From NCBI RefSeq assembly GCF_004777465.1, contig NZ_CP038462.1, forward strand, positions 3,410,001-3,474,000: DNA of 64,000 nucleotides. Direction: 5' to 3'. Under the pieces are notes generated by a model. That model worked only from the letters and a program-made list of their open reading frames with translations, did no database searches and was not told the origin of the DNA. Below, piece after piece: positions 1-15,676 of this stretch; positions within the stretch are counted from its first letter, which is position 1; every line of letters starts with the position of its first letter. The translations under genes were made by a program, and so were the position numbers. The DNA comes from Nocardioides daphniae (GTDB lineage Bacteria > Actinomycetota > Actinomycetes > Propionibacteriales > Nocardioidaceae).

Positions 1-242
1 GCGCCGAGGTCGAAGTCGGGGTCGCGCACCGCCACCGGCGGCTGCAGGTCGCCGGGCACGCCGACGATCCGCCAGCGCCACGACGGCAGCTCGTCGAGCC
101 GGGAGTCGAGGTGGGCACGGAGCTCGGCCAGCGTGAGGGTCGCGTGCTCGCCGGCCAGCACCCCGATCACCATCGAGTTCATCGGTTGCCCTGGCAGGTC
201 CATGTGCAGGAAGCCGGCGTCCTCGCCGTTGAGCCGGTGCAT
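1..242 (-). CDS. Wax ester synthase/diacylglycerol acyltransferase (WS/DGAT), N-terminal part only
   Basis: The minus strand from the ATG at 242 reads MHRLNGEDAGFLHMDLPGQP, the usual opening of bacterial WS/DGAT acyltransferases (family pattern M-RL-x-DA-x-F-x-x-x-x-PG-x-PM). These enzymes esterify acyl-CoA to long-chain alcohols or diacylglycerol to make storage wax or triacylglycerol at the membrane. About 80 codons are visible and the gene runs off the left edge, so the HHxxxDG catalytic motif lies outside the window. No strong Shine-Dalgarno precedes the ATG. It is divergent from the lipid synthase cluster starting at 656, which suggests shared lipid physiology. The family call rests on the N-terminus alone. 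Confidence 0.72.
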   Translation of the reverse strand, partial: MHRLNGEDAGFLHMDLPGQPMNSMVIGVLAGEHATLTLAELRAHLDSRLDELPSWRWRIVGVPGDLQPPVAVRDPDFDLG

Positions 243-547: not shown

Positions 548-655
548 CGACGAGCACGTAAGTGACCGGCCGGTAACGAGGGAGACGTTGCCGACCCGGA
601 CTCTTGAGGGAGGGTCCGGCGCATCCCGGTCATGCAAGGGACGAGGGAGCCCCAC

Positions 656-3600
656 ATGCCGCAGTGCGCCAGCTCGACCCTGCCCGCAGGATCGGAGACG
701 GTGGTCGCCGCCGACCCCACCGGCCAACCCAACCCCGCGCTCGTCGCAGCCGCGCTGCGTGCCGGCGGCACCGGGCTCCTCGACGCCCCCACCCCCACCG
801 CGTACGCCCGTGCGCACGCCGAGCTGACCCGTCGCCGCGCGCTCGACGCCTGGCTCCGTCCGGGCCCTGCGCTGGACGCCGCGGCCGAGCAGGTCGCCGC
901 CGCGGTCGTCGTGCTCGAGCTGGCCGGCCGCGGCGCACCGGCTGAGGTCGTCGCCCGGTGGACTGCCCCCGGTCGGCGCCTCATCGCCCAGGTCACCAGC
1001 CGCGCGGAGGCCCTCGCGGCCCGCGACGCCGGCTTCGACGGACTGCTCGCCTCGGGCTGCGAGGCCGGTGGCCGGGTCGGCGAGACCGAGGCCTTCATCC
1101 TGCTCCAGCAGACGCTCGACCTCGGGCTGCCGGTCTGGTTGCGCGGCGGCATCGGCCTGCACACCGCGGCGGCCGTGGTCGCCGGCGGTGGCGCCGGGGT
1201 CGTGCTCGACACCCAGCTGGGCCTGACGCGCGAGTCCCTGTTCGACGCCGCGACCCGCACCGCCCTGACCGCGATGGACGGCAGCGAGACCCGTGTGGTC
1301 AACGGCGTCCGCTTCTTCACCCGCCCCGACCTGCCGTCGGCGCAGGTCAGCGAGGAGACCGGCACCGACGAGCTCGTCGGCCGGCTCGGGGCCTCGATCA
1401 CGACCCACCTGGTGCCCTTCGGCCAGGACAGCGCCACCGCTGCGGGGCTGGCCGAGCGCTTCGTGACCGTCGGTGGGGTGGTCCAGGGGATCACCACCTC
1501 GATCACCGAGCACCTCGCCGCGGCGGCGACGGCTCCCCCGCTGGCGCCCGGCGCCGGCGTGAGCGTCGCGCACGGCACGACGTACCCGATCGCCCAGGGC
1601 CCGATGACCCGGGTGAGCGACCGTGCAGGGTTCGCCGACGCGGTGGCCACCGGCGGCGGCCTGCCCTTCCTGGCGCTCGCCCTGCTGCCGGCCCACGAGG
1701 TCCGCGCGCTGCTCACCGAGACCAAGGAGCTGCTCGGCGACAGGCCGTGGGGCGTCGGCCTGCTCGGCTTCGCCCCGCCGGAGCTGCTCACCGAGCAGCT
1801 GGCCGTGGTCCACGAGGTCGCGCCGCCCTTCGCGCTCGTCGCGGGCGGTCGCCCGTCGCAGTCCGCAGCGCTCGACGCGGCCGGCATCGCGTCGTACCTG
1901 CACGTCCCCTCGCCGGGGCTGCTCGACCGTTTCCTCGCCGACGGCGCCCGCGCCTTCGTCTTCGAGGGCCGTGAGTGCGGCGGCCACGTGGGCCCGCGCT
2001 CCAGCTTCGCTCTGTGGGAGGCGCAGATCGAGCGCCTGATGGCGGTCGAGGACCCGGAGAACCTGCGCGTCCTGCTCGCCGGCGGCATCCACGACGCCCG
2101 CTCGGCCGCAATGGCCGGCGCCGCGCTCGCGCCGCTCGCCGCGAAGGGCGCCCAGGTCGGCGTCCTGATGGGCACCGCCTACCTCTTCACCACCGAGGCC
2201 GTCGCCGCCGAGGCGATCCAGCCGGCCTTCCAGGAGGTGGCCGTCGCGTGCGACACCACCGTGCTGGTCGAGACCGCCCCGGGCCACGCCACCCGCTGCG
2301 TGGAGACCGACTTCGTACGCGCCTTCGCCGCCCGCCGTGACGAGCTGGTCGCTGCCGGCGTCGACGCCAAGGAGCGCTGGGCCGAGCTCGAGCAGCTCAA
2401 CCTGGGCCGCCTGCGGATCGCCTCGAAGGGGCTGACCCGCGGCGAGTCCGGCCTGGAGCCGGTCGACGTGGAGCAGCAGCGCGCCGAGGGCATGTACATG
2501 ATCGGCGAGGTCGCCACCCTGCGCCACGAAGTCACCACCGTGGCCGACCTGCACGCCGAGGTCAGCGCCGGCAGCGCCGCCTGGCAGCTGCCCGGCATGG
2601 AGACCGAGGCCGCAGCGGCCCCCGAGGCCGACCCGTTCGACATCGCGATCGTCGGCATGGAGTCGTTCTTCCCCGGCGCGGTCGGCGCCGAGCAGTTCTG
2701 GGCCAACGTCGTCGCCGGCACCGACCACGTCACCGAGGTGCCGGCCGACCGCTGGGAGGCCGACCTCTACTACGACGCGGAGGCCACCGGCCGCAGCGCC
2801 GGCCACAAGACCCCGTCGAAGTGGGGCGGCTTCATCGAGGCCGTCGGCTTCGACCCGCTGGCCTACGGCATCCCGCCGGCCTCGCTCGCCGCGATCGAGC
2901 CGGTCCAGCTGCTCAGCCTGGAGGTCGCCGCCCGCGCCCTGGCCGACGCCGGCTACGCCACCCGCGACTTCGACCGCGAGCGCGCCTCGGTGGTCTTCGG
3001 CGCCGAGTCCGGCAACGAGCTCGGCGGCATGTACGGCGTACGCGCCTTCCTGCCGCAGCTGCTCGGCGAGGTGCCCGACGAGCTCCAGGACTGGCTGCCG
3101 ACGCTCACCGAGGACTCCTTCCCCGGTGTGCTCGCCAACGTGATCGCCGGCCGCATCGCCAACCGCCTCGACCTCGGCGGGGTCAACTACACCGTCGACG
3201 CCGCCTGCGGCTCGTCGCTCGCCGCCCTCGACGCGGCCTGCAAGGAGCTGCGTACCGGCACCTCCGACCTGGTCATCGCCGGTGGCGCCGACCTGCACAA
3301 CGGCCTCAACGACTACCTGATGTTCTCGTCGGTGCACGCCCTGTCGCCGACCGGACGTTGCCGCACCTTCGACGCCGACGCCGACGGCATCGCGCTGGGT
3401 GAGGGCATCGCCGCGGTCGTGCTCAAGCGCCGCGTCGACGCCGAGCGCGACGGCGACCGGATCTACGCGGTCATCGACGCCGTCGCCGGCTCCTCCGACG
3501 GCCGCCACCTCGGCCTCACCGCGCCCCGCAAGGAGGGCCAGCAGCGGGCGGTCGTCCGGGCGCTCGAGGCCTCCGGCGTCGACCTCCACGAGGTCGGGCT

Positions 3601-6190
3601 GGTCGAGGCCCACGGCACCGGCACCGTCGTCGGCGACCGCACCGAGATGGCCACCCTCACCGAGCTGTTCGCCGAGGCTGACGTCGAGGCCGGCTCGGTC
3701 GTGCTCGGCTCGGTGAAGTCGCAGATAGGCCACACCAAGTGCGCGGCCGGGCTCGCCGGGCTGATCAAGGTCGCCAAGGCCGTGCACCACGGCGTGCTGC
3801 CGCCGACCATCAACCTGGTCGACCCCAACCCGTACTACGACCCCGAGGCCAGTCCCTTCCGCTTCCACGACAAGGCCCGCCCCTGGGCCGCGGAGACCCG
3901 CCGTGCCGGCGTCAGCGCCTTCGGCTTCGGCGGCACCAACTTCCACGCGGTGGTCTCCTCCTACGACGCGGGCGACCGCCCCGCCCACAGCCTCACCCAG
4001 TGGCCGGCCGAGCTCTTCGTCGTCCGCGGCGCGACCGAGGCCGACGCCGCCAAGGCCGTCGCCGGGCTGCGTACGACCGTGGCCGCCGTCGCCGAGAGCG
4101 ACCCGGGCGCCCAGCGCCACCGGCTGCGTGACCTCGCCTGGGCGGTCTCGCGCCAGGGCCGCGGCCCGGTGCGGGCAGCGTTCGTCGCCTCCTCGTTCGC
4201 CGAGGTGCTGCGCCGCCTGGACGAGGCCGAGGCGCGTGGCTTCGCCGCGACCGACGCCGCCGAGCGCGGTCAGGTCGCCTTCCTCTACCCGGGTCAGGGC
4301 AGCCAGCGTCCGGGCATGCTCAACGACCTCTTCGTCACCTTCGGCGGTCTCGACGACCTGCTGCGTGAGGGAGCCGAGTGGGCGGGGCCGATGTTCCCGC
4401 CGACCGCCTTCACCAAGGAGCAGCGCGCCGCCCAGCAGGCCGCGATCACCTCCACCGACGTCGCCCAGCCCACGCTCGGCATCGCCGCCGTGGCGATGAC
4501 CCGCCTTCTCGGCCGGGTCGGGATCACCCCCGACGTCGCCGCGGGCCACTCCTACGGCGAGCTCGCCGCGCTGGCCGCCGCCGGCTCCTTCGACGACGCC
4601 ACTCTGCTGTCGCTGAGCGCGGCCCGCGGTCGCGCCGTGCTGACCGCGGTCGAGCGCTCGGGCGGTGACCCCGGCACCATGGCCGCCGTCTCGCTGACGC
4701 TGCCCGAGGTCACCGAGCGGATCGCCGCCTGGCCCGACGTCGTGGTCGCCAACCACAACGCCCCCCGGCAGGTCGTCGTCTCCGGCCCGACCTCGTCGGT
4801 GCGCGCGTGCGTCGAGGCGCTGGAGGCCGACGGCGTACGCGCCACCCTGATCCCGGTCGCGTGCGCCTTCCACTCGCCGCTGGTCGCCGAGGCGTCGACG
4901 ATCCTGGCCGAGCGCCTGGCCGAGGTCGAGGTCTCCGCCCCTGCCTTCCCGGTCTGGTCGAACAGCACCGCCGAGCCGTACCCGAGCGACCCCGCCGCCG
5001 TCCGCGCGCTGCTCGCCGACCAGGTCGCCGAGGGCGTCCGTTTCGTCGACCAGGTCGAGTCGATGTACGCCGCCGGCGTCCGCACCTTCGTCGAGGCCGG
5101 CCCCGGCCGCGTCCTGTCGGGCCAGGTCGCGAAGATCCTGGGCGACCGCTCGCACACCGTGGTCGCCACCGAGGTGCCCGGTGAGCCCGGCGTACGACGC
5201 TTCCTCGAGGCCGTCGCCCAGCTCGCGCTGCTGGGCGTCGAGGTCGACGAGTCCAGCCTCTTCGCCGGTCGCGCCGACGCCGTCGACCTGCGTACGTGGC
5301 CGCTCAAGGCCCCCGGCTGGACCATCGACGGCGCCTTCGTACGTCGCGCCGACGGCACCGTGCTGCCCAACAGCTTTCAGCCCGCCGGGACCATGCCGGC
5401 GCTGGCGGCCGCCGCTCCCGCGCCGGTCGCGGACCCCGTCCTCACCAGCAGTGCCGTCGCCAGCGACGAGGAAGGACTCCACATGACTGCCTACGACGCG
5501 GACACGTCCGGCCACGCCATGGACGCCCCCACCTTCGCCGGGTCCGGTGCCGACGCCGTGGTCCACGAGTACCTGCGCTCGATGCGCCAGGTCGTGGCCG
5601 CCGAGCGCGACGTGCTGCTGCGCTACCTGGGCGCGCCCGCTGCTGCGCCCGTCGCCGCGCCCGTTGTCGCCGCCCCCGCAAGGCAGCGTCATCACGAGGG
5701 GTCGGCCCAGCAGCCGCTCGTGATGACGTCCGCAGAGCCGACTCCGCAACGTGATCACGAGCGGTCGGCCCAGCAGCCGCTCGCGATGACGCCCGCCGCC
5801 CCGATCGTGCCCGTCGCCCCTGCCGCAGCCCCGGCCCTCGACTACATGGCCGAGGTCCAGGCCGTCGTCTCCGAGCGCACCGGCTACCCCGTCGACATGC
5901 TCGAGCCCGACCTCGACCTCGAGGCCGACCTCTCCATCGACTCCATCAAGCGCATCGAGATCGTCGGCGAGCTCGCCGAGCGCATCGGCCTCGGCACCGG
6001 CGGCACCCTCGCCGACGACGTCGTCGAGGAGCTCTCCCGCCACAAGACCCTGCGGGCGATCGTCGACTGGGTCACCGCCCAGGTCGGCGCGCCGGCCACC
6101 CTGCCCCGGCAGCCGAGGCACCTGCCGCGGTCTCGGCCGCCGGGGCACCCGCCGCCGCAGCTCCCCCCGCCGTGCTCGCCGTCGACCTGA
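656..6190 (+). CDS. Pfa-type secondary-lipid synthase, 5' part: nitronate monooxygenase-like ER - KS - AT - ACP
   Basis: This iterative type I synthase resembles PfaD fused to PfaA. Residues 1 to about 640 hold two nitronate-monooxygenase-like stretches (a glycine-rich EAGGRVGE region, then a second with ECGGHVGPR and LLAGGIHDA), likely the FMN enoyl reductase. The KS spans about 660-1080, with active-site Cys851 in DAACGSS and histidines in EAHGTGT and IGHTKCAAG. The AT has Ser1299 in GHSYGE. An Ala/Pro linker carries two REP-like inserts, and an ACP follows with Ser1763 in DLSIDSIKR. I prefer the ATG at 656 (GAGGGAG at 645-651) over the ATG at 632. A one-base loss near 6100 shifts the frame, so the last 30 or so residues are nonsense and the protein continues at 6172. 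Repaired length with the next entry is about 2460 residues. Confidence 0.85.
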   Translation: MPQCASSTLPAGSETVVAADPTGQPNPALVAAALRAGGTGLLDAPTPTAYARAHAELTRRRALDAWLRPGPALDAAAEQVAAAVVVLELAGRGAPAEVVARWTAPGRRLIAQVTSRAEALAARDAGFDGLLASGCEAGGRVGETEAFILLQQTLDLGLPVWLRGGIGLHTAAAVVAGGGAGVVLDTQLGLTRESLFDAATRTALTAMDGSETRVVNGVRFFTRPDLPSAQVSEETGTDELVGRLGASITTHLVPFGQDSATAAGLAERFVTVGGVVQGITTSITEHLAAAATAPPLAPGAGVSVAHGTTYPIAQGPMTRVSDRAGFADAVATGGGLPFLALALLPAHEVRALLTETKELLGDRPWGVGLLGFAPPELLTEQLAVVHEVAPPFALVAGGRPSQSAALDAAGIASYLHVPSPGLLDRFLADGARAFVFEGRECGGHVGPRSSFALWEAQIERLMAVEDPENLRVLLAGGIHDARSAAMAGAALAPLAAKGAQVGVLMGTAYLFTTEAVAAEAIQPAFQEVAVACDTTVLVETAPGHATRCVETDFVRAFAARRDELVAAGVDAKERWAELEQLNLGRLRIASKGLTRGESGLEPVDVEQQRAEGMYMIGEVATLRHEVTTVADLHAEVSAGSAAWQLPGMETEAAAAPEADPFDIAIVGMESFFPGAVGAEQFWANVVAGTDHVTEVPADRWEADLYYDAEATGRSAGHKTPSKWGGFIEAVGFDPLAYGIPPASLAAIEPVQLLSLEVAARALADAGYATRDFDRERASVVFGAESGNELGGMYGVRAFLPQLLGEVPDELQDWLPTLTEDSFPGVLANVIAGRIANRLDLGGVNYTVDAACGSSLAALDAACKELRTGTSDLVIAGGADLHNGLNDYLMFSSVHALSPTGRCRTFDADADGIALGEGIAAVVLKRRVDAERDGDRIYAVIDAVAGSSDGRHLGLTAPRKEGQQRAVVRALEASGVDLHEVGLVEAHGTGTVVGDRTEMATLTELFAEADVEAGSVVLGSVKSQIGHTKCAAGLAGLIKVAKAVHHGVLPPTINLVDPNPYYDPEASPFRFHDKARPWAAETRRAGVSAFGFGGTNFHAVVSSYDAGDRPAHSLTQWPAELFVVRGATEADAAKAVAGLRTTVAAVAESDPGAQRHRLRDLAWAVSRQGRGPVRAAFVASSFAEVLRRLDEAEARGFAATDAAERGQVAFLYPGQGSQRPGMLNDLFVTFGGLDDLLREGAEWAGPMFPPTAFTKEQRAAQQAAITSTDVAQPTLGIAAVAMTRLLGRVGITPDVAAGHSYGELAALAAAGSFDDATLLSLSAARGRAVLTAVERSGGDPGTMAAVSLTLPEVTERIAAWPDVVVANHNAPRQVVVSGPTSSVRACVEALEADGVRATLIPVACAFHSPLVAEASTILAERLAEVEVSAPAFPVWSNSTAEPYPSDPAAVRALLADQVAEGVRFVDQVESMYAAGVRTFVEAGPGRVLSGQVAKILGDRSHTVVATEVPGEPGVRRFLEAVAQLALLGVEVDESSLFAGRADAVDLRTWPLKAPGWTIDGAFVRRADGTVLPNSFQPAGTMPALAAAAPAPVADPVLTSSAVASDEEGLHMTAYDADTSGHAMDAPTFAGSGADAVVHEYLRSMRQVVAAERDVLLRYLGAPAAAPVAAPVVAAPARQRHHEGSAQQPLVMTSAEPTPQRDHERSAQQPLAMTPAAPIVPVAPAAAPALDYMAEVQAVVSERTGYPVDMLEPDLDLEADLSIDSIKRIEIVGELAERIGLGTGGTLADDVVEELSRHKTLRAIVDWVTAQVGAPATLPRQPRHLPRSRPPGHPPPQLPPPCSPST
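5687..5728. repeat. REP-like palindrome copy 1 inside the synthase linker
   Basis: CGTCATCACGAG and CTCGTGATGACG are perfect 12-bp arms around a GC-rich loop. It is translated in frame as part of the Ala/Pro linker (QRHHEGSAQQPLVMT). Related palindromes occur between genes at 32591-32648 and 60835-60878. Confidence 0.7.
5751..5791. repeat. REP-like palindrome copy 2 inside the synthase linker
   Basis: A close direct copy of the 5687-5728 element, differing at a few bases and encoding QRDHERSAQQPLAMT. The two lie in tandem just before the first ACP. Confidence 0.65.
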
Positions 6191-6415
6191 TGGTGGCCGT
6201 GCAGGAGGTCGTCTCCGAGCGCACCGGCTACCCCATCGACATGCTCGAGCCCGACCTCGACCTCGAGGCCGACCTCTCCATCGACTCCATCAAGCGCATC
6301 GAGATCGTCGGCGAGCTCGCCGAACGCATCGGCCTCGGCACCGGCGGCACCCTCGCCGACGACGTCGTCGAGGAGCTCTCCCGCCACAAGACCCTGCGGG
6401 CGATCGTCGACTGGA
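5864..6415 (+). repeat. Near-identical direct repeat encoding the two tandem ACP domains
   Basis: About 205 bases from 5864 recur from 6208 with only a few differences; each copy encodes an ACP with the DLSIDSIKR motif. The offset is 344 bases, one short of a multiple of three, which independently supports loss of one base between the repeats. Confidence 0.8.
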
Positions 6416-8037
6416 TCGAGGCGCAGTCCGGTACGAGCGCCCCCGCGGCCCCGGCTCCTGTCGCGCCCCCCGCTGCCACCGCCCCGTCGACTCCCACCCA
6501 GGCAACTGCCCCCGCCGAGGAGCTGGTCCTGCCCACGGCCCTCTTCGAGGTCGTCGTCGAGCCGCTCGGCCCGACCATGGCCCTGGGCGACCTGTCCGGC
6601 GCGACCGTCGCCCTGGTCGAGGGCCACGCCACCCTCACCGACGAGGTCGAGTCGACACTCTCCGACCGCGGCGCCCAGGTGGTCCGCGTACGCCACACCG
6701 ACGCGCACGAGCACCAGGAGCTGCTCGCCCAGGTCGACGTCCTGCTCGACCTGGGCGCCACCGCAGGTGACCCCCGCGTCGACGCCCGCACCGTCTTCGG
6801 CACGGTCCAGCCGGCCCTCCTGGGCCGGGCCGGCCGGATCCTCGCCGTCGGCGTCGCCCTCCACGCCGACCCCGAGCGGGTCGACGCGAGCGGCACCCCG
6901 ACGGGCCTGCCGGGGATGTTCCGCTCCCTGGCCCGCGAGTACGCCGACCGGGTGCTGCGCTCGGTCGAGATCGACGCCGACGACCTCGTCGGTGACCTCG
7001 CCCCGCTGGCCGCTGCCGTGGTCGACGAGCTGCTCGACGTGGACGCCCCCGCGGCGCTGTCGTGGGCCGGCGGCCTGCGCACCACCCGGGTCGCGGGCGA
7101 GGTCCGTCGCCTCGAGGAGCAGGTCGCAGCGCTCGACCTGACCCCGGAGTCGGTCGTCGTGCTCACCGGCGGAGCCCGCGGCATCACCGCCCGGATCGCC
7201 GAGGGAGTGGCCCGCGCGGCCCGGTGCCGTCTGGTCCTGGTCGGCCGCTCGCCCTACCCGACCGAGGCCGAGGACCCGCGCCTCGCCGACGCCCGTACGC
7301 TGCCCGAGCTGCGCCGCCGCCTCCTCGACCTCGGCGAGGTGCGCACGCCGGCCGAGGTCGAGCGCGCCTGCTCCGAGGTGCTCGCCTCCCGCGAGGTGAT
7401 CGGCACGCTGGAGCGGCTGCGTGAGCTCGGCGCCGACGCCGAGTACGTCGCCATGGACGTCCGCTCCCCCGGGTTCGGTGCGCTGCTCGACGCGCTGCAC
7501 GCGACCTTCGGCCGTCTCGACGGCGTCATCCACGGCGCCGGCGTGCTCGACGACCGCTTGGTCCGCGACAAGACCGCCGACGGCTTCGACCGGGTCTTCG
7601 GCACCAAGGTCGACTCCGCCCGGGCGATCCTCGAGCGCCAGCACCTGGGCATCCGCTTCGTCGTGCTTTTCGGCTCGATCAGCGGCGTCTTCGGCAACAA
7701 GGGGCAGGTCGACTACGCGGCCGCCAACGACGCCCTCGACACGCTCGCCCACGCCCACGACGGCCGCCACGGCTGCCGCGTCCTGTCGCTGGACTGGGGC
7801 CCGTGGGCCGGTGGCGGCATGGTGTCGCCCGAGCTCGAGCGGGAGTACGCACGGCGCGGCATCGGCATGCTGCCGCCCGCCGACGGCGTACGAGCGCTGC
7901 TGCAGGAGGTCGCCCGCCCCGGCGGCGCCTCGCAGGTCGTGGTGATGGCCGGCAGCCCCGACGCCTTCGCGCCCGCTCCGCCGGCCCGCCCGGCCGGTGC
8001 TGGGGCCCGGATCCGCCAGGGGACGCTCGCCCCATGA
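6172..8037 (+). CDS. Pfa-type secondary-lipid synthase, 3' part: second ACP - ketoreductase
   Basis: This is the continuation of the preceding synthase in the next frame; upstream of the nominal GTG the same frame already reads as Ala/Pro linker, so it is not a separate gene. It starts with the second ACP (phosphopantetheine Ser in DLSIDSIKR), then a long Ala/Pro linker, a degenerate structural part and a ketoreductase with a Rossmann glycine motif in TGGARGI and the catalytic SDR region around FGSISGVFGNKGQVDYAAAND. KS-AT-ACPn-KR is the standard PfaA order. The stop overlaps the next start in an ATGA, so translation is probably coupled. Confidence 0.85.
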   Translation: MLAVDLMVAVQEVVSERTGYPIDMLEPDLDLEADLSIDSIKRIEIVGELAERIGLGTGGTLADDVVEELSRHKTLRAIVDWIEAQSGTSAPAAPAPVAPPAATAPSTPTQATAPAEELVLPTALFEVVVEPLGPTMALGDLSGATVALVEGHATLTDEVESTLSDRGAQVVRVRHTDAHEHQELLAQVDVLLDLGATAGDPRVDARTVFGTVQPALLGRAGRILAVGVALHADPERVDASGTPTGLPGMFRSLAREYADRVLRSVEIDADDLVGDLAPLAAAVVDELLDVDAPAALSWAGGLRTTRVAGEVRRLEEQVAALDLTPESVVVLTGGARGITARIAEGVARAARCRLVLVGRSPYPTEAEDPRLADARTLPELRRRLLDLGEVRTPAEVERACSEVLASREVIGTLERLRELGADAEYVAMDVRSPGFGALLDALHATFGRLDGVIHGAGVLDDRLVRDKTADGFDRVFGTKVDSARAILERQHLGIRFVVLFGSISGVFGNKGQVDYAAANDALDTLAHAHDGRHGCRVLSLDWGPWAGGGMVSPELEREYARRGIGMLPPADGVRALLQEVARPGGASQVVVMAGSPDAFAPAPPARPAGAGARIRQGTLAP

Positions 8038-11000
8038 CCCGCCGCCGCACCCTCGACCAGGGCCCCCGCCCCGACGACGTCGCCATCGTGGGCGTCGCCG
8101 GGGTGTTCCCGGGCGCCGGCGACGCGGCCACCTTCTGGCGCAACGTCGTCGACGGGGTCGACTCGATCACCGACGCCCCCGCCAGTCGCTGGGACCCGGT
8201 CTTCTTCGACGCCGACGCCAAGTCGGCGGACCGCTTCTACACCCGGCGCGGGGGCTTCGTCGACGACGTCGCGACCTTCGACCCGCTGGCCTTCGGAATC
8301 ATGCCGGTGGCCATGGAGGGCTGTGAGCCCGACCAGCTGCTCGCCCTCGGCGCCGCGGCGGCCTGCCTGGCCGACGCCGGCGACGTCCACGAGGACGTCG
8401 ACCCGAGCAAGGTGGCGGTGCTGATCGGTCGCGGTGGCTACCTGGGTGACGGGATCGCCCGCCTCGACCAGCGCGTACGCACGGCGCAGCAGGTCGTCGA
8501 GGTGCTGCGCAGCGTGGTCCCCGGCATCACCGAGGCGCAGCTCGACCGGGTGAAGTCGCAGTTCCAGGACTCCCTGGGCCCGGAGCGTCCCGAGGGCGCG
8601 ATCGGCCTGGTGCCCAACCTGGCGGCCTCGCGGATCGCCAACCGCTTTGACTTCCAGGGGCCGGCCTACACGGTCGACGCCGCGTGCGCGAGCTCGCTGA
8701 TCGCCGTCGAGCAGGCCGTCGACCTGCTGCGCTCGGGCCGCAGCGACCTGGTGCTGGCCGGCGGCGTGCACCACTGCCACGACCTGACGTTGTGGAGCGT
8801 CTTCTCCCAGTTGCGCGCGCTGTCGCCCAGCGGCGGGATCCGCCCCTTCTCCGACGCCGCCGACGGTGTGCTGATCGGGGAGGGCACCGGCCTGATGGCG
8901 CTGCGTCGCCTGGCCGACGCCGAGCGCGACGGCGACCGGGTCTACGCGGTGATCCGCGGCACCGGCGTGGCCAGCGACGGGCGCGGCTCCTCGCCGATGA
9001 GCCCGCGCCTCGAGGGGCAGGTCCAGGCCGTCACCGCTGCCTGGCAGGCGGCCGGGCTCGACCCGCGCGACGTCGGGCTGGTCGAGGCCCACGGCACCGC
9101 GACCCCGCTCGGCGACCGCACCGAGCTCGCCACCCTGCGCAGTTTCTTCGGGGCGTACGACCCCGCCTCCGGCCCCCGCGCGGTGCTCGGGTCGGTGAAG
9201 TCCAACATCGGTCATGCCATGCCGGCCGCCGGCGCCGCCGGGATGATCAAGGCAGCGCTCGCGCTGCACCACCGCGTGCTCCCCCCGACCCTGCACGCCG
9301 AGGAGCCGCACGCCGACGTGGAGTCGACGCGCTTCCGGCTGCTGTCCCAGGCCGAGCCGTGGGAGGGCGACGGCGAACGGCTGGCCGGCGTCAACGCCTT
9401 CGGCTTCGGCGGGATCAACGCCCACGTGGTGCTCTCGGAGGCCCCGGGACGCGATCACGAGGGTGGCCCGGGGGCGACGCTGACGACGGCGTCCGGCGAG
9501 CGGCCCGCGCCCGCCCCGACCGCCGACGAGGAGATCATCCTGCTCGCCGGCACCGACGCGATCGACCTGCTGCGCCAGCTCGACGAGCTCACCGCCAGCG
9601 GGCGCACCGCGACCACCGTCGTACCGCCCGCCGACGCCGGCCCCGCCCGCCTGGCCGTCGTCAACCCCGACGAGCGCCGCCTCACCCTCGCCCGCAAGGT
9701 GCTTGCCCGCGGCACCGCCTTCCGCGGCCGCAACGACGTCTGGTTCGACCCGACGGGCCTGCTGCGCGACGGCGAGGTCTGCTTCCTCTTCCCGGGCGTC
9801 GAGCCCGAGTTCGACCCGCAGGTCGACGACCTCGCCGAGCTCCTCGGCCTGCCGTGGATCAGCACCGCGTCGGCCGCCGACGGGGTCCAGGGCCAGGGCA
9901 TCGGCATCACCGAGGTCGGCCACTTCCTCGCCGACGCGCTGGCCGCGATCGGGGTCCGCCCCGACCAGATCGCCGGCCACAGCCTGGGCGAGTGGACCGG
10001 CCACGTGGTCAGCGGGATGATCCCCTACGAGCACGTCCACACCATGCTGGCCGGGCTGCGGCCGGGCGTGATGGAGTTTCCCGACGTCGTCTTCGTGGCG
10101 CTGGGCTGCGGGGTCGAGGTGGCCGGCGAGATCATCGACGGGGTCGCCGACGCCCACGTGAGCCACGACAACTGCCCACGCCAGTCGATCGTCTGCGCGC
10201 CGCAGGCGGCCGTGCCCGAGCTGCTCGCCCGCGCCAAGGAGCGCAGGGTGATGGCCCAGGAGATGCCCTTCCGCTCCGGCTTCCACTCGCCGCTCTTCGC
10301 GCCCTACGTCGACGGGCTGCTCCAGCTCTTCCGCACCCTGCCGATGAGCCCGGCCGCGGTGCCGCTCTGGTCGGCCACCACACTCGAGCCCTACCCCGAC
10401 GACGAGGCCTCGATCCAGGCCCTCGCGACCCGGCACCTGCTCGAGCCGGTCCGCTTCCGCGAGCTCACGCTGAAGCTCCACGCGCGCGGCGTCCGGGCCT
10501 TCGTCCAGGTCGGCTCGGGCAGCCTCAACGGCTTCCTCGACGACACCTTACGCGGCGAGGACGTGCTCACTGTCTCGGCCCTGCCGGCACCCGGCGCCCG
10601 GTCGTCGCACTCGAGCGTGGGGCAGCTGCGACGAGTGGCGGCGGCGCTGTGGAGCGCCGGCTACGACGTCGACCTGGCCCCGCTCGGCCACGGTGACCGC
10701 AGTGGCCGCAGGGACCCCAAGGACCGCAGTGGCCGCACGGTCGAGGGGGCGCCGCGCGACGACGTACGCCCGTCACCGCGCGCGGGCATGCCCGTACGCC
10801 TGGGGTCGACGCTGGTCCGCGACCTGACGCCGCTGGCTCCCCAGGCCCCCTCGGGCGTCACCGCCCCGGGCACCGCACCGGAGCTGCCGGCGCCGACGCC
10901 CACCACCTCGCCGTTCGCCAGCGAGTTCCAGGCGCTGGTGCGCGACGCGACCCAGGCCGCGCAGCAGGTCGTCGCAGCGGCCGGCAGCGCCGTCCGCCCA

Positions 11001-11906
11001 GCCGTCCGCCGAGCCGCGCGCCCGGCCACGCGCCCCGTCGCGACCAGGCACGTGCAGCAGGCCCCGGCACGCGTCCTCACCCCGACCGCGCAGGAGTCCG
11101 AGACCGTCCTCGAGCTCTCGGTCGCGGCGCAACCGTGGTGGGGCGATCACGCCTTCTACCCCCAGCCTGAGGGCTGGGAGTGCCTGGAGGACCGGTTCCC
11201 GCTGGTCCCGATGACCGCCCTGATCGAGATGCTCGCCGACGAGGCGCAGAAGCTGGTGCCCGGCAGCGTCGTCGTCGCGGTCGAGCAGGTCAGGGCCTTC
11301 AAGTGGCTGGCCGTCGAGCCCGCCGCCACGGTCACCGTCCGGGCCACCCTGGACGCCGAGGCCAGCACAGCCGCCGGACCCGGGAGCTGGTGCGTCAAGG
11401 CATCGATCGACGGCCACACCCGGGCCGTCGTACGCCTGGCCGCCGAGCACCCGCAGGCCCCCGCGCCCGCCCGACCCGGATCACCGGCGAGATCCCCCGG
11501 GAGTGGACCGTCGAGCAGATCTACGCCGACGGCCATCTCTTCCACGGGCCCGCCTACCAGGGCATCGCCTCCGTCGAGGCCTTCGGCACCGACGGGGTCG
11601 CCGGCCACCTGGAGACCAAGCCGTTCCCCGGGTCGCTGCTCGACAACGCCGGCCAGCTCTTCGGCATCTGGGTCGCGGCCCGCGCCGACAAGGACCGGCT
11701 CGTCCTGCCGACCTCGGTCGACCGCTTCGCCTTCTTCGGGCCGCACCCCGAGCCCGGCACCGTGGTCCGGTGCGTGGTCACCTGCACCGCGCTGGAGGAG
11801 ACGCACGTGCGCGCCGACCTCGAGCTCACCGTCGACGGCCGGGTGTGGTGCCGCATCGAGGGGTGGGAGGACCGTCGCTTCCAGAGCGACGACCGCCTCT
11901 TCATGA
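8034..11906 (+). CDS. Second lipid synthase subunit, 5' part: KS - AT - first half of DH
   Basis: PfaC-like subunit. The KS begins at about residue 15 (VAIVGVAGVFPGA) and keeps the full triad: Cys in DAACASS, His in EAHGTAT and His in NIGHAMPAAG, so it is a condensing domain rather than a decarboxylase-only chain-length factor. The AT has Ser in GHSLGEW. A variable Ala/Pro region leads to a hotdog dehydratase whose likely catalytic His is in WWGDHAF. A one-base loss near 11470 shifts the frame; residues after about 1145 are not real, and the protein continues at 11485. It starts with ATG inside the ATGA overlap with the upstream synthase. Repaired length of the whole subunit is about 1561 residues. 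Confidence 0.83.
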   Translation: MTRRRTLDQGPRPDDVAIVGVAGVFPGAGDAATFWRNVVDGVDSITDAPASRWDPVFFDADAKSADRFYTRRGGFVDDVATFDPLAFGIMPVAMEGCEPDQLLALGAAAACLADAGDVHEDVDPSKVAVLIGRGGYLGDGIARLDQRVRTAQQVVEVLRSVVPGITEAQLDRVKSQFQDSLGPERPEGAIGLVPNLAASRIANRFDFQGPAYTVDAACASSLIAVEQAVDLLRSGRSDLVLAGGVHHCHDLTLWSVFSQLRALSPSGGIRPFSDAADGVLIGEGTGLMALRRLADAERDGDRVYAVIRGTGVASDGRGSSPMSPRLEGQVQAVTAAWQAAGLDPRDVGLVEAHGTATPLGDRTELATLRSFFGAYDPASGPRAVLGSVKSNIGHAMPAAGAAGMIKAALALHHRVLPPTLHAEEPHADVESTRFRLLSQAEPWEGDGERLAGVNAFGFGGINAHVVLSEAPGRDHEGGPGATLTTASGERPAPAPTADEEIILLAGTDAIDLLRQLDELTASGRTATTVVPPADAGPARLAVVNPDERRLTLARKVLARGTAFRGRNDVWFDPTGLLRDGEVCFLFPGVEPEFDPQVDDLAELLGLPWISTASAADGVQGQGIGITEVGHFLADALAAIGVRPDQIAGHSLGEWTGHVVSGMIPYEHVHTMLAGLRPGVMEFPDVVFVALGCGVEVAGEIIDGVADAHVSHDNCPRQSIVCAPQAAVPELLARAKERRVMAQEMPFRSGFHSPLFAPYVDGLLQLFRTLPMSPAAVPLWSATTLEPYPDDEASIQALATRHLLEPVRFRELTLKLHARGVRAFVQVGSGSLNGFLDDTLRGEDVLTVSALPAPGARSSHSSVGQLRRVAAALWSAGYDVDLAPLGHGDRSGRRDPKDRSGRTVEGAPRDDVRPSPRAGMPVRLGSTLVRDLTPLAPQAPSGVTAPGTAPELPAPTPTTSPFASEFQALVRDATQAAQQVVAAAGSAVRPAVRRAARPATRPVATRHVQQAPARVLTPTAQESETVLELSVAAQPWWGDHAFYPQPEGWECLEDRFPLVPMTALIEMLADEAQKLVPGSVVVAVEQVRAFKWLAVEPAATVTVRATLDAEASTAAGPGSWCVKASIDGHTRAVVRLAAEHPQAPAPARPGSPARSPGSGPSSRSTPTAISSTGPPTRASPPSRPSAPTGSPATWRPSRSPGRCSTTPASSSASGSRPAPTRTGSSCRPRSTASPSSGRTPSPAPWSGAWSPAPRWRRRTCAPTSSSPSTAGCGAASRGGRTVASRATTASS

Positions 11907-12153
11907 TGCTGCGCGAGCCCGGCGACCACCTGCTCGCGCTGCCCCAGCCCAGCGGCTGGTTCCTGGTCGTCGAGGGCTGGCCCGACTCGGCGTCGCGCGA
12001 GGTCGTGATGCGCCGCTTCCTCAACCAGGCGGAGCGGGCCACCCACATGGGCCTCAACCCGCGGGCGCAGCGCACGCGCCTGCTCGGGAGGATCGCCGCG
12101 AAGGACGCCGTGCGGGCGCGCCTGTACGCCGCCGGACGGTCCTCGGTCTTCCC
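11485..12153 (+). CDS. Second lipid synthase subunit, middle part: rest of the dehydratase
   Basis: This stretch reads in the frame after the break near 11470. It begins TRITGEIPREWTVEQ and contains HGPAYQGI, the usual second hotdog signature of polyketide synthase dehydratases, and LLDNAGQL, whose Asp is in the position of the catalytic acid. It has no start codon or ribosome site of its own and is a piece of the KS-AT-DH-PPTase protein. The frame breaks again near 12154. Confidence 0.75.
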
Positions 12154-12717
12154 GCTGAGCTCGGGATCGAGAACGCCGACTCCGGTCGTCCGCACGTCCT
12201 GCTCCCGGGCCAGGACGTCGCCGGCACGCCGGGGCTCGGTGACCTCCGGATCTCGATCGGCCACACCCTCGGCGGCCGGGGGGCGCCGGTGGGCCTCGGC
12301 GTCGCGATCGCCGCCGACGGGGTCGACGTCGGCATCGACGTGGAGCGCGTCGACACCCGCGGCGACCAGTTCGCCAGCACCGCCATGGCCCAGCCCGAGC
12401 TCGACCTCTTCGACCACCACTTCGGCGCCCTCACCGGCCGCGACCGCGACCGCGAGCTGACGCGGTGGTGGGCCGCGAAGGAGGCCGCGGCGAAGGCGCT
12501 CGGCACCGGGCTCCAGGGGCGTCCCCGCGACTTCGTGGTCGCCGAGGTCGCGCAGGCCGACGGCGAGGTCGCGCTGCGCGTCGGCGAGCGCTGGATCGCG
12601 ACCACCAGCGTCTTCCCCACCACCACAGATCCCAGCACCACCACGGCGTCGTCCGACGCTGCCGCACCGGAGGAGTACATCGTTGCCTGGACAGACCTCG
12701 AGCCACGCCATGGCTGA
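12154..12717 (+). CDS. Second lipid synthase subunit, 3' part: fused 4'-phosphopantetheinyl transferase
   Basis: After the second frame break the protein reads as an Sfp-type PPTase: GIDVERVD carries the Mg-binding acid, and WWAAKEAAAKALGTGL is the W-x-x-KEA-x-x-K signature. It would load phosphopantetheine onto the two internal ACPs and the free ACP that follows. The break falls at ttcccgctgagc, where one restored base gives a continuous VFPAELGIENA reading. A PPTase fused to the C-terminus is known in enediyne PksE enzymes; in Pfa systems it is usually a separate PfaE. The stop overlaps the ACP start by eight bases. Confidence 0.8.
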   Translation, partial: AELGIENADSGRPHVLLPGQDVAGTPGLGDLRISIGHTLGGRGAPVGLGVAIAADGVDVGIDVERVDTRGDQFASTAMAQPELDLFDHHFGALTGRDRDRELTRWWAAKEAAAKALGTGLQGRPRDFVVAEVAQADGEVALRVGERWIATTSVFPTTTDPSTTTASSDAAAPEEYIVAWTDLEPRHG

Positions 12718-13015
12718 GACCCCCGCACCCGTCACCGTCACCCGGGAGTCCGTGCTGGCCGACCTCGAGCGCATCCTGCTCGAGGTGGTCGGTGACGACC
12801 TCCTCATGGACGGCCCCCTGGAGATGGAGACCTCGTTCAGCGACGACCTCCAGCTGGAGAGCATCGAGTTCGTCGCGCTCGCCGAGGAGCTCCTCAACAC
12901 CTACGGCGAGAAGGTCGACTTCGTGACCTGGATGTCGGGCATGGAGCTCGACCAGGTGGTCTCGCTGACCGCCGGCCAGGTCGTCGACTTCGTCGTCGCG
13001 TCACTGGAGGCCTGA
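12710..13015 (+). CDS. Stand-alone acyl carrier protein
   Basis: A 101-residue acidic ACP. The phosphopantetheine Ser is in the DLQLESIEFV motif. The ATG at 12710 overlaps the end of the synthase subunit; a TTG at 12683 is also in frame but less likely. It may hold the starter or finished acyl chain for the downstream hydrolase and glycosyltransferase. Its sequence differs clearly from the internal ACPs, so it probably has a separate partner. Confidence 0.85.
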   Translation: MAETPAPVTVTRESVLADLERILLEVVGDDLLMDGPLEMETSFSDDLQLESIEFVALAEELLNTYGEKVDFVTWMSGMELDQVVSLTAGQVVDFVVASLEA

Positions 13016-13018
13016 GCC

Positions 13019-13957
13019 GTGCCCTACATCGAGTCCAACGGACTGAAGTTCCACGTGCAGGTCCTCGGCGGCGGCGTCGACGACAGCGGCGCCAAGCGGC
13101 CCAAGGTCGTGATGCTCCACGGGCTGGTCATCGACAACCTGTCGAGCTGGTTCTACACGCTCGGCCACCCGATGGCGCAGCAGGTCGACGCGCACCTGGT
13201 CGACCTCCGCGGCCACGGGCGTACCGAGATCGCCGACTCCGGCTACCACGTCGCCGACCACGTCGCCGACCTGCTGGGCCTGCTCGAGGCGTGGGAGATC
13301 GACGAGCCGATCCACTTCTTCGGCAACTCCTTCGGCTGCGTCGTGGGGCTGGCGCTGGCCAAGCAGCACCCCGAGAAGGTGGCCAGCCTCTTCCTGATCG
13401 AGGCGCACTTCTCGGTGCCCGGCTGGGGCGAGCACATGGCCGGCACCCTGGCGCTGGCCGCCTTCGGGCTCGACGAGGTGGCCGTACGCGAGTACCTCGC
13501 CACCGAGGCCGACCGGAAGACGTCGCGCCTGGCGAAGCGCACCGAGAAGCTCTTCTTCGGCACGTCGCTGATCGAGGACCTGAAGACCGAGACGCCGATC
13601 GACTGGCTCGACGAGATCCAGTGCCCAGTCTTCGCGATCTACGGCTCGGAGTCCGACATCCTCGACCGGGCCCGTGAGCTCGAGGCGAAGGTGCCGCACT
13701 GCACCCTCGAGGTCGTCGAGAACGCGAGCCACTCACTGCTCATCGAGAACGCCGCGCTCATCAAGTCGCGCGCCTTCGCGTGGCTCAACACCCACGTCGG
13801 CACCGACTTCGTCGTCGAGCACGTCGACGTCGCCAGCCGCGAGGGCGCGCTCGGCACGATGGGTGCCCCCGAGGCGATGGAGGTGCTCAACCAGATGGCG
13901 GCGGAGAACAGGCACCTGCTCGACGAGCGGGCCGTCCCCGTACGACGCGTGGTCTGA
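13019..13957 (+). CDS. Alpha/beta-hydrolase, probable chain-release or tailoring enzyme of the lipid cluster
   Basis: This is a 312-residue alpha/beta-hydrolase with GTG start three bases after the ACP stop. The oxyanion region is LHGLV, the nucleophile elbow GNSFG, and Asp (GSESD) and His (ENASHS) follow in order, so the triad is complete. No thioesterase domain is present in the synthase subunits, so release of the chain from the ACP is an attractive role. The last 60 or so residues form an extra polar tail beyond the hydrolase fold. Substrate cannot be told from sequence. Confidence 0.75.
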   Translation: MPYIESNGLKFHVQVLGGGVDDSGAKRPKVVMLHGLVIDNLSSWFYTLGHPMAQQVDAHLVDLRGHGRTEIADSGYHVADHVADLLGLLEAWEIDEPIHFFGNSFGCVVGLALAKQHPEKVASLFLIEAHFSVPGWGEHMAGTLALAAFGLDEVAVREYLATEADRKTSRLAKRTEKLFFGTSLIEDLKTETPIDWLDEIQCPVFAIYGSESDILDRARELEAKVPHCTLEVVENASHSLLIENAALIKSRAFAWLNTHVGTDFVVEHVDVASREGALGTMGAPEAMEVLNQMAAENRHLLDERAVPVRRVV

Positions 13958-13959
13958 GC

Positions 13960-15156
13960 GTGGCGCGCTTCCTCTTCGTCGTCCCGCCCTTCGCCGGACA
14001 CGTCAACCCGACCATCCCGGTCGCGGCGGAGCTGACCCGGCGCGGCCACGAGGTCGCGTGGGCGGGCCTGCCCGGCCAGCTCCGGGCGATGCTGCCCGAG
14101 TGGGGCCGGTTCATCCCGGCGGGCTCGGAGGAGTGGGCGGCAGTGGTGGCCGAGCGCAACGTGCTCCGGTCCGACCTGCGGGGCGCGGCGGCGTACAAGT
14201 TCCTCATGGAGGAGGCGCTGATCCCCATGTGCCTGGTGATGCTCGAGGGCGTCGACCAGGCCGTCACCGACTTCGCCCCCGACGTGCTGGTGAGTGACCA
14301 GCAGACGTGGGCGGGCGCGGTCGTGGCGCGGCGGCGTGGCCTGGTGTGGGCGACGTCGGCGACCACGTCAGCCGAGATGGTCGACCCGCTGGCCGGGCTG
14401 CCGAAGGTCGCCGAGACCTTCCACCGCACCCGGGTCGAGCTGCAGGTCGACCACGGGGTCGCGCCCGAGGTGGCCGAGGCCGGCGACCTGCGGCTGTCGG
14501 AGCACCTGGTGCTCGCCTACACGTCCAGCGCGCTGGTCGGCGACGGGCTGGAGAGCGTCAGCGGGTCGGTGCCCGTGGCGTACGTCGGCCCGTCGGGCCT
14601 GGACCGCGACGAGGTCGACGACTTCGACTGGAGCCTGGTCGACCCCGAGAAGCCGCTGGTGCTGGTCTCGCTGGGCACGCTGAGCGCGGAGTCGGGGACC
14701 CGGTTCTGGCAGGTGGCCGCCGAGGCCTTCGCCGACCAGCCGTGGCAGGGGATCTTCGTGGCGCCTCCGGCGCTCGTGCCCGACGCGCCGGCCAACGTGG
14801 TCGTGCGCGAGCGGGTGCCACAGCTGGCGGTGCTGCGCCGCGCGGCGGCCGTGGTGTCGCACGGCGGCCACAACACGGTGTGCGAGTCGCTGTCGAACGG
14901 GTTGCCGCTGGTGGTGGCGCCGATCCGCGACGACCAGCCGGTGATCGCCGACCAGGTGGTGCGGGCCGGGGCGGGCGTACGGGTGAAGTTTGCCCGGGTC
15001 AGGGCGGAGGCCCTGCGGGCGGCTGTCGACCAGGCGTTGCACGACGAGTCGCTGCGGGCCGGGTCGCAGTCGATGGCCGCCGACCTCGCCTCGTGCGGGG
15101 GCAAGGCGGCTGCGGCGGACGCGCTGCTGGGGCTGGCCGCGCGGGTGCCTGCCTGA
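13960..15156 (+). CDS. MGT-family (GT1) glycosyltransferase
   Basis: This 398-residue glycosyltransferase of the macrolide/UDP-glucuronosyl-transferase type has an N-terminal Rossmann opening FLFVVPPFAGHVNP and the donor-binding C-terminal signature VSHGGHNTVCESL. GTG start two bases after the hydrolase stop marks it as the last gene of the operon; a long hairpin follows at 15167. GT1 enzymes move a sugar from a nucleotide donor to a hydroxyl of a small lipophilic acceptor, so the product of the synthase is probably a glycolipid. Confidence 0.82.
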   Translation: MARFLFVVPPFAGHVNPTIPVAAELTRRGHEVAWAGLPGQLRAMLPEWGRFIPAGSEEWAAVVAERNVLRSDLRGAAAYKFLMEEALIPMCLVMLEGVDQAVTDFAPDVLVSDQQTWAGAVVARRRGLVWATSATTSAEMVDPLAGLPKVAETFHRTRVELQVDHGVAPEVAEAGDLRLSEHLVLAYTSSALVGDGLESVSGSVPVAYVGPSGLDRDEVDDFDWSLVDPEKPLVLVSLGTLSAESGTRFWQVAAEAFADQPWQGIFVAPPALVPDAPANVVVRERVPQLAVLRRAAAVVSHGGHNTVCESLSNGLPLVVAPIRDDQPVIADQVVRAGAGVRVKFARVRAEALRAAVDQALHDESLRAGSQSMAADLASCGGKAAAADALLGLAARVPA

Positions 15157-15235: not shown

Positions 15236-15676
15236 TCAGACGCGCTCGAGCAGGAAGAGCGGGATCTCCCGGTCGGTCTTCTTCTGGTACTCGCCGTAGG
15301 TCGACCACGTGGCGACGGCGTGCTCCCACCAGTCGGCGCGCTCCTCGCCCTCGAGCAGTCGCACGGAGTAGGTGTGCTTCTCGGGGCCGTCCTGCAGGTC
15401 GACCTCGGGGTGCGCCACGAAGTTGGCGTACCAGGACGGGTTCTTCGGGCCTCCGCCGTACGACGCCACGGCCAGGTACTTGCCGTCGCGCTCGACGCGC
15501 ATCACCGGGTTCTTGCGGAGGTTGCCCGACTTGGCGCCGCGCGAGGTGATCACCACGACGGGGTCGTCGGTGCCGGGCAAGGTGGTGGCCCGGGTGCCGC
15601 CGGACGCCTCGTACTCAGCGACCTGGTCACGGACCCACTGGGCGTTGGACGGGACATAGGTTCCTTCGAGTGCCAT
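15236..15676 (-). CDS. F420-dependent nitroreductase-family (DDN-like) protein
   Basis: This 146-residue protein of the deazaflavin-dependent nitroreductase family shows the typical core TSRGAKSGNLRKNPVMRVE followed by YLAVASYGGGPKNPSWYANF and PEVDLQDG, forming the split beta-barrel that binds F420. These enzymes reduce quinones, nitro compounds or unsaturated lipids. ATG at 15676 gives the normal family length. It is convergent with the glycosyltransferase, separated by the hairpin at 15167-15231. Confidence 0.85.
   Translation of the reverse strand: MALEGTYVPSNAQWVRDQVAEYEASGGTRATTLPGTDDPVVVITSRGAKSGNLRKNPVMRVERDGKYLAVASYGGGPKNPSWYANFVAHPEVDLQDGPEKHTYSVRLLEGEERADWWEHAVATWSTYGEYQKKTDREIPLFLLERV

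Follow-up and report, generated by a model that had tools for sequence, protein, structure and literature searches.

What does an actinobacterium make with a fatty-chain synthase that is encoded end to end with a hydrolase and a glycosyltransferase (GT)? The question is raised by an operon of the soil actinobacterium Nocardioides daphniae, which lies in a 64,000-nt stretch of contig NZ_CP038462.1 (positions 3,410,001 to 3,474,000), referred to below as the window. Six-frame open reading frames (ORFs), together with Pfam and NCBIfam matches, placed five genes on the + strand at 632–15156. The first (P1, 632–8037) codes, in this order, for a tandem NMO/FabK-like reductase, a ketosynthase (KS1), an acyltransferase (AT), two acyl carrier protein (ACP) domains and a ketoreductase (KR); the second (P2, 8034–12717) codes for another ketosynthase (KS2), an AT, a dehydratase (DH) and a phosphopantetheinyl transferase (PPTase). 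A discrete ACP, an alpha/beta hydrolase and a GT1-family GT follow (Table 1). On balance, we lean towards a mobile lipid-glycoside island that would make a glycosylated, further acylated long fatty chain; the product is probably an O-acylated long-chain (hydroxy) fatty acid glycoside.

The five-gene operon

The operon was first noticed in an earlier reading of the letters alone (the sequence-only reading), and it is real. The domains assigned in that reading were found by Pfam and NCBIfam, and the tightly packed, one-strand order that it described was borne out by the gene junctions and by relatives, with the correction that P1 and P2 contain frame changes. The P1 stop and the P2 start codons share an ATGA (8034–8037), P2 overlaps the ACP gene by 8 bases, and the hydrolase gene is separated from the ACP and GT genes by 3 and 2 bases, respectively. 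The ATG at 656, taken earlier as the start, is in frame with P1. Neither P1 nor P2 is open in the window: frame changes occur near 6.10–6.18 kb in P1, and near 11.45 and 12.15 kb in P2. Pfam matches are accordingly spread over ORFs 632–6190 (NMO in two stretches, KS, AT and one ACP), 6172–8037 (ACP and KR), 7803/8034–11906 (KS and AT), 11180–12460 (PS-DH) and 11503–12717 (ACPS). In the congeners G233 (Nocardioides jishulii) and G109, P1 and P2 are each one open frame.

A synthase related to PfaA

P1 has the domain order of PfaA (KS-AT-ACPn-KR), and PfaA is its best curated match. The scores obtained with TIGR02813 were all below the cut-off of 1010.1 bits (695.1 for the first ORF of the window, 945.5 for the intact P1 of G233 and 898.9 for that of the Streptomyces locus L011), while the Azospirillum control reached 1297.5 bits. 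A KS tree was built with 72 domains, 22 KS1, 15 KS2, 8 PfaA KS and 24 modular polyketide synthase (PKS) domains among them; five rows, including FabF and the second KS of Azospirillum, are on long branches, and the tree holds no Hgl, PksE or Ars sequences. All 22 KS1 fall into a single clade, which is sister to the 8 PfaA KS (99/96) and apart from the 24 modular-PKS domains, while the 15 KS2 form a separate group with weak support (74/71). The two-protein iterative synthase with a Pfa-like core proposed by the sequence-only reading is thus upheld. Of the KS comparison that it had suggested, against Pfa, Hgl, PksE and other iterative groups, the Pfa part was answered in its favour. KS2 keeps its cysteine (DAACASS) and both histidine motifs and is followed by an AT. 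Since the active-site cysteine is kept, KS2 is not a chain-length factor (CLF), and a KS-CLF pair is not what is encoded here.

The reductase consists of tandem FabK-like barrels. By profile match, the GGH motif, whose histidine is catalytic in FabK, is present in the second barrel of all 21 sequences and in the first barrel of none. A comparison of the reductase with a TIGR02814-positive PfaD gave no significant similarity (BLASTP E 0.72). In the 16 relatives scanned, the DH matched PS-DH in every case and PKS_DH_N in 12; a FabA-type DH (PF07977) was found in none of the 16, and the window ORF is also PS-DH. The same library does detect FabA in a Pfa-like cluster of Frankia (L219), which served as control. 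The nearest DH relatives in the PDB are PKS DH domains. The motifs of the P2 AT (AT2) and of the DH are kept in the 17 aligned P2 rows from relatives (17/17), and are present in the window too. P1 shows two ACP motifs in Nocardioides and one in most Streptomyces. The PPTase of the window contains hShxH and x(G/D)xP, and lacks the P0 and P1b ((F/S)NxSH) motifs typical of polyunsaturated fatty acid (PUFA) systems; hShxH was also seen in 14 of 16 relatives, and one P0-like string was found, in L186.

The sequence-only reading had allowed for a 'reduced or polyunsaturated' chain. The polyunsaturated option found no support, given the PKS-type DH (16/16), the absence of a PfaD-like enoyl reductase (ER), the KS2 cysteine and a PPTase without P0 and P1b. 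A classical PUFA is thus unlikely, and a reduced, probably hydroxylated long chain fits these domains better.

Conservation of the gene order in relatives

GTDB species genomes were scanned by tblastn with P2 (E up to 1e-3), which yielded 469 stretches; the best 80 were examined. The order P1-P2-ACP-hydrolase-GT is kept in 69 of these 80 loci, more than chance would give, so that the hydrolase and GT genes stay with the synthase in relatives, as the sequence-only reading had supposed, and are not separated from it. Among the 11 exceptions, a contig end cuts L037, L040, L077, L082 and L091, and an extra gene call is present in L026, L027 and L075. The hydrolase and GT genes overlap by 1–8 bases in 66 of 78 loci. 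A methyltransferase gene follows the GT in 54 of the 80 loci and an ABC exporter gene in 10; one or the other lies next to the GT in many Streptomyces and Frankia relatives. Two Streptomyces plasmids (L011 and L012) carry the same five genes followed by an S-adenosylmethionine (SAM) methyltransferase gene. These plasmids are large, linear and typed as mobilizable, and might be a vehicle of operon spread.

The five-gene set was seen in Streptomycetaceae, Pseudonocardiaceae, Frankiaceae, a Sporichthyaceae-type genome and Nocardioides, and its conservation across these families points to a single class of glycolipid in actinobacteria that has yet to be described. In KS1, the identity of Nocardioides P1 to proteins named Acidimicrobiales reaches 82% (others listed go down to 65%), and that to Streptomyces loci is about 60–68%, a pattern that fits horizontal spread. 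One Frankia genome (G271) contains two copies of the operon (L187 and L220) and, separately, the Pfa-like cluster L219 (G271:3456001-3476000), which has three ACPs, a FabA-type DH and an NMO/FabD-insert ER.

WS/DGAT genes and insertion of the island in Nocardioides

KS1 is present in 8 of 215 Nocardioides genomes. In cluster-bearing Nocardioides, two wax ester synthase/diacylglycerol acyltransferase (WS/DGAT) genes, A and B, lie divergent to P1. The pair of G233 scored 335.5 and 355.1 bits, above the TIGR02946 cut-off (309.95), and HHxxxDG is found in both of its members and in WS/DGAT-A of the window. Homologues of WS/DGAT-B at E 1e-60 occur in 46 of the 215 genomes. Close homologues (E 2.1e-139 or better) occur in only six, all of them KS1 carriers, and adjoin P1 in each. 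This restriction of close WS/DGAT-B to cluster carriers within the genus (6 of the 8 carriers) is new here; the WS/DGAT genes of the island, and the methyltransferase or ABC exporter genes of relatives, likewise go beyond the sequence-only reading. In the eighth carrier, G660, the cluster is on a 4.9-kb contig too short to show WS/DGAT-B. In the window, WS/DGAT-B is missing from 242–632; six congeners have it between WS/DGAT-A and P1.

The island is flanked by two anchor genes, coding for a 208-aa protein (ACT-domain-like by eye) and an enoyl-CoA hydratase (Pfam). In the three carriers tested, the distance between the anchors is 17.0, 20.4 and 28.7 kb; in the seven cluster-free genomes checked, it ranges from 66 bp to 3.8 kb (7/7; in G134 the first anchor is inverted). 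Because the anchor genes are close together in cluster-free genomes and far apart in carriers, the WS/DGAT genes and the synthase operon are one insert; their co-inheritance and their insertion as a unit are direct observations, as are the genes themselves, their order and their motifs. A different insertion site for the cluster of G027 was considered and rejected, since the same two anchor genes flank it.

A WS/DGAT gene is also found downstream of the GT in L185 and L186, which belong to another family (L186 is a Sporichthyaceae metagenome-assembled genome). This link is apparently independent of that in Nocardioides. In L186, the WS/DGAT gene is accompanied by an ABC-transporter-like gene and a second GT1, making up an extended tailoring set.

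Proposed product and alternatives

According to the domains present, KS1, aided by KS2, would condense malonyl units that the ATs load onto the tandem ACPs, the latter being activated by the fused PPTase. KR, the PKS-type DH and the tandem FabK-like FMN reductase would process each beta-carbon, giving a long, mostly reduced chain in which at least one hydroxyl is probably retained. The chain would move on to the discrete ACP, from which the Ser/Cys alpha/beta hydrolase would release or transfer it via an acyl-enzyme, and the GT1 would add a sugar to it. The sugar or the chain would then be O-acylated in Nocardioides by one or two WS/DGAT enzymes; many relatives in Streptomyces and Frankia have a methyltransferase or ABC exporter gene at the following position. 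Chain length, saturation, the hydroxyl, all substrates and the order of tailoring are predictions from gene content, from which we also infer the product type, the glycolipid put forward by the sequence-only reading. In an alignment of 92 relatives, many of these rows being near relatives, the hydrolase has Ser as its nucleophile in 81 rows and Cys in 11, and the histidine is invariant. The existence of a Cys variant hints at acyl transfer more than at simple hydrolysis.

Several observations weigh against a lipid-glycoside island. The acceptor of the GT1 is not readable from its sequence, and its nearest solved relatives act on flavonoids, macrolides and enediynes. WS/DGAT genes were not found in Streptomyces or Pseudonocardiaceae loci within flanks of about 10 kb. 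L079 and L089 (2 of the 80 loci) show no hydrolase call, and L068 no P1 call. Three of the four Frankiaceae copies (L187, L188 and L190) encode a PPTase that has lost its GIDxE and KE motifs. These motifs are kept in L220, which shares a genome with L187 and could serve both copies; the idea that this Frankia strain has to rely on a PPTase encoded outside the operon copies was rejected on these grounds. P2 of G027 (L145:15749-19105) has an AT and a PPTase and no KS2, and in G140 (L144/L182) KS2 was not recognised, so KS2 is not indispensable. G027 and G140 are sisters in the KS1 tree; a single loss of KS2 is therefore likely. Lastly, three frame changes interrupt the window copy itself, and it is accompanied by just a single WS/DGAT gene.

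The product might instead be a glycosylated polyketide and not a lipid, that is, a partly reduced polyene or polyketide decorated by a macrolide-type GT. The nearest relatives of the GT and DH are indeed macrolide/enediyne GTs and PKS DH domains, and the nearest solved KS structure comes from a PKS. However, KS1 clusters with PfaA and lies apart from the modular PKSs sampled, the KR-DH-ER set is complete, Nocardioides has two tandem ACPs (although one is commoner in Streptomyces) and WS/DGAT genes are linked to the operon; we consider a polyketide unlikely, though deserving of attention. A wax-ester/triacylglycerol system, in which the synthase would feed unusual acyl chains to the WS/DGATs and the GT would be incidental, agrees with the finding of close WS/DGAT-B only with the cluster in this genus. 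It is nevertheless quite improbable, as nearly all relatives keep the GT and in most of them no WS/DGAT was found.

Frame changes in the window copy

The cluster could also be dead in this strain, the three frame changes in P1 and P2 and the missing WS/DGAT-B, present in six congeners, being true decay. The frames of 19 G233 genes longer than 150 aa with a tblastn match in the window region were compared, and five differed in frame between the two genomes: P1, P2, recB and two genes located near 23.6 kb and at 25.2 kb. Both recB (left of the window) and the gene at 25.2–26.4 kb lie outside the cluster and, unlike in G233, are split by frame changes. The difference near 23.6 kb was dropped as a split in the window, whose frame is open there; the shift could be in either genome. 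Because these two non-cluster genes are split too, assembly indels are the simpler reading and appear likelier than decay, as judged from the assembled sequence as it stands. Pseudogene decay was rejected as first choice for the same reason, and KS1 of the window is still 95–96% identical to that of G233. A dead cluster therefore has little probability in our view.

Comparison with known systems

The operon resembles PfaA-E in the KS-AT-ACPn-KR order and in the sister position of KS1, and differs from it in the PKS-type DH, the tandem FabK-like ER, an active-type KS2 in place of a CLF, and a fused PPTase without PUFA motifs. A Pfa-type route to a PUFA or a PUFA glycolipid, suggested by the domain order and best curated match of P1, is highly improbable and was rejected, there being no FabA-type DH/isomerase in the 16 relatives, no PfaD-type ER, no CLF, no P0 or P1b in the PPTase, and a score below the PfaA cut-off even for intact P1. 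The Hgl heterocyst glycolipid synthase, by description and not by sequence, also combines a Pfa-related chain synthase with a GT; unlike it, the operon gave no Pfam match to a thioester reductase in either P1 or P2.

Shulse and Allen (2011; PMC3098273) reported actinobacterial Type M clusters without a product in Actinosynnema, Frankia, Renibacterium and S. avermitilis. In the PPTase part of that paper, hShxH and x(G/D)xP without P0 or (F/S)NxSH is the pattern of Types M–T, the one found in the window. Judging from taxa and PPTase motif, the operon is likely this published, product-less 'Type M' secondary-lipid synthase: in both the product is undescribed, and Frankia is shared. The P2 KS of L187, whose genome holds L220 as second copy, matches Frankia sp. 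ACN1ag at 97%. Some caution is needed since the same Frankia genome also holds the true Pfa-like cluster L219, so that the identity is likely rather than certain; in addition, the word glycosyltransferase is absent from the main text of PMC3098273. A product established here would attach to a kind of synthase known from genomes, product-less, since 2011. The Azotobacter ArsA/ArsD phenolic-lipid system (Type P; PMC4824345) is alike by description in having a long-chain synthase with its own PPTase, and unlike in that no type III PKS was seen among the scanned neighbours of the operon, which has a GT and a hydrolase instead.

A review of actinobacterial surfactants (PMC4365757) describes glucolipsin, cycloviracin and fattiviracin as dimeric molecules that are built from glucosylated long-chain hydroxy acids and come from Streptomyces, Kibdelosporangium and Nocardia. 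In these actinobacterial macrodiolide glycolipids, treated there as compounds only, sugar esters link the long-chain hydroxy-acid glucosides, and some are O-methylated; they would need a KR, a GT, acyl transfer and a methyltransferase, and are for the operon a candidate product class only. Among the open-licence PMC papers listed, none is by its title about their gene cluster. It is conceivable, if rather improbable, that the operon is the missing route to this class and its kin: a C18–C28 3-hydroxy acid would be glucosylated at its 3-OH by the GT, the Ser/Cys hydrolase would close a dilactone of two units by sugar O-acylation, and the methyltransferase (Streptomyces) and WS/DGAT pair (Nocardioides) would act as lineage-specific sugar caps. 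A described product for the P1-P2-ACP-hydrolase-GT layout was not found in the searches made of the open-licence PMC literature; a 2026 survey of PUFA-synthase hybrids (PMC13291983) describes hybrid PKS–nonribosomal peptide synthetase clusters. The role of each part is open to ready genetic tests through the KS2-less natural variant and the partners that differ between lineages (WS/DGAT, methyltransferase, exporter).

Features of the window

Table 1. Domains of the operon and adjacent genes (window coordinates)
Feature	Position	Strand	Basis and remarks
P1 enoyl reductase region, two tandem FabK/NMO-like barrels	632..2551	+	Pfam; ECGGHVG kept in barrel 2, GGR for GGH in barrel 1
P1 KS1	2639..3949	+	Pfam/NCBIfam; Cys and both His motifs present
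P1 AT1	4280..5242	+	Pfam/NCBIfam
P1 ACP1	5852..6073	+	Pfam; followed by frame change at about 6.10-6.18 kb
P1 ACP2	6196..6417	+	Pfam, in ORF 6172-8037
P1 KR, PfaA-like	7153..7809	+	Pfam/NCBIfam
P2 KS2	8034..9299	+	Pfam/NCBIfam; active-site Cys present, DAACASS
P2 AT2	9873..10517	+	Pfam; GHSLGEW
P2 DH, PKS type	11130..11887	+	Pfam; DHAFYPQ and LLDNAGQ motifs; frame change near 11.45 kb
P2 PPTase	12328..12717	+	GIDVE, WAAKE; ISIGH just 5'; preceded by frame change near 12.15 kb
Discrete ACP	12710..13015	+	NCBIfam ACP models below cut-offs; ACP family kept in relatives
Alpha/beta hydrolase	13019..13957	+	Pfam; nucleophile elbow GNSFG
GT1-family GT	13960..15156	+	Pfam UDPGT/EryCIII-like; macrolide-GT model (NCBIfam) below cut-off
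WS/DGAT-A, first 80 codons (473 aa whole; rest left of the window on the same contig)	1..242	-	HHxxxDG in the whole gene
F420H(2)-dependent quinone reductase family gene	15236-15676	-	PF04075; between the GT and enoyl-CoA hydratase genes

Genes similar to the PF04075 gene that follows the operon are present in G233, G109 and G695.

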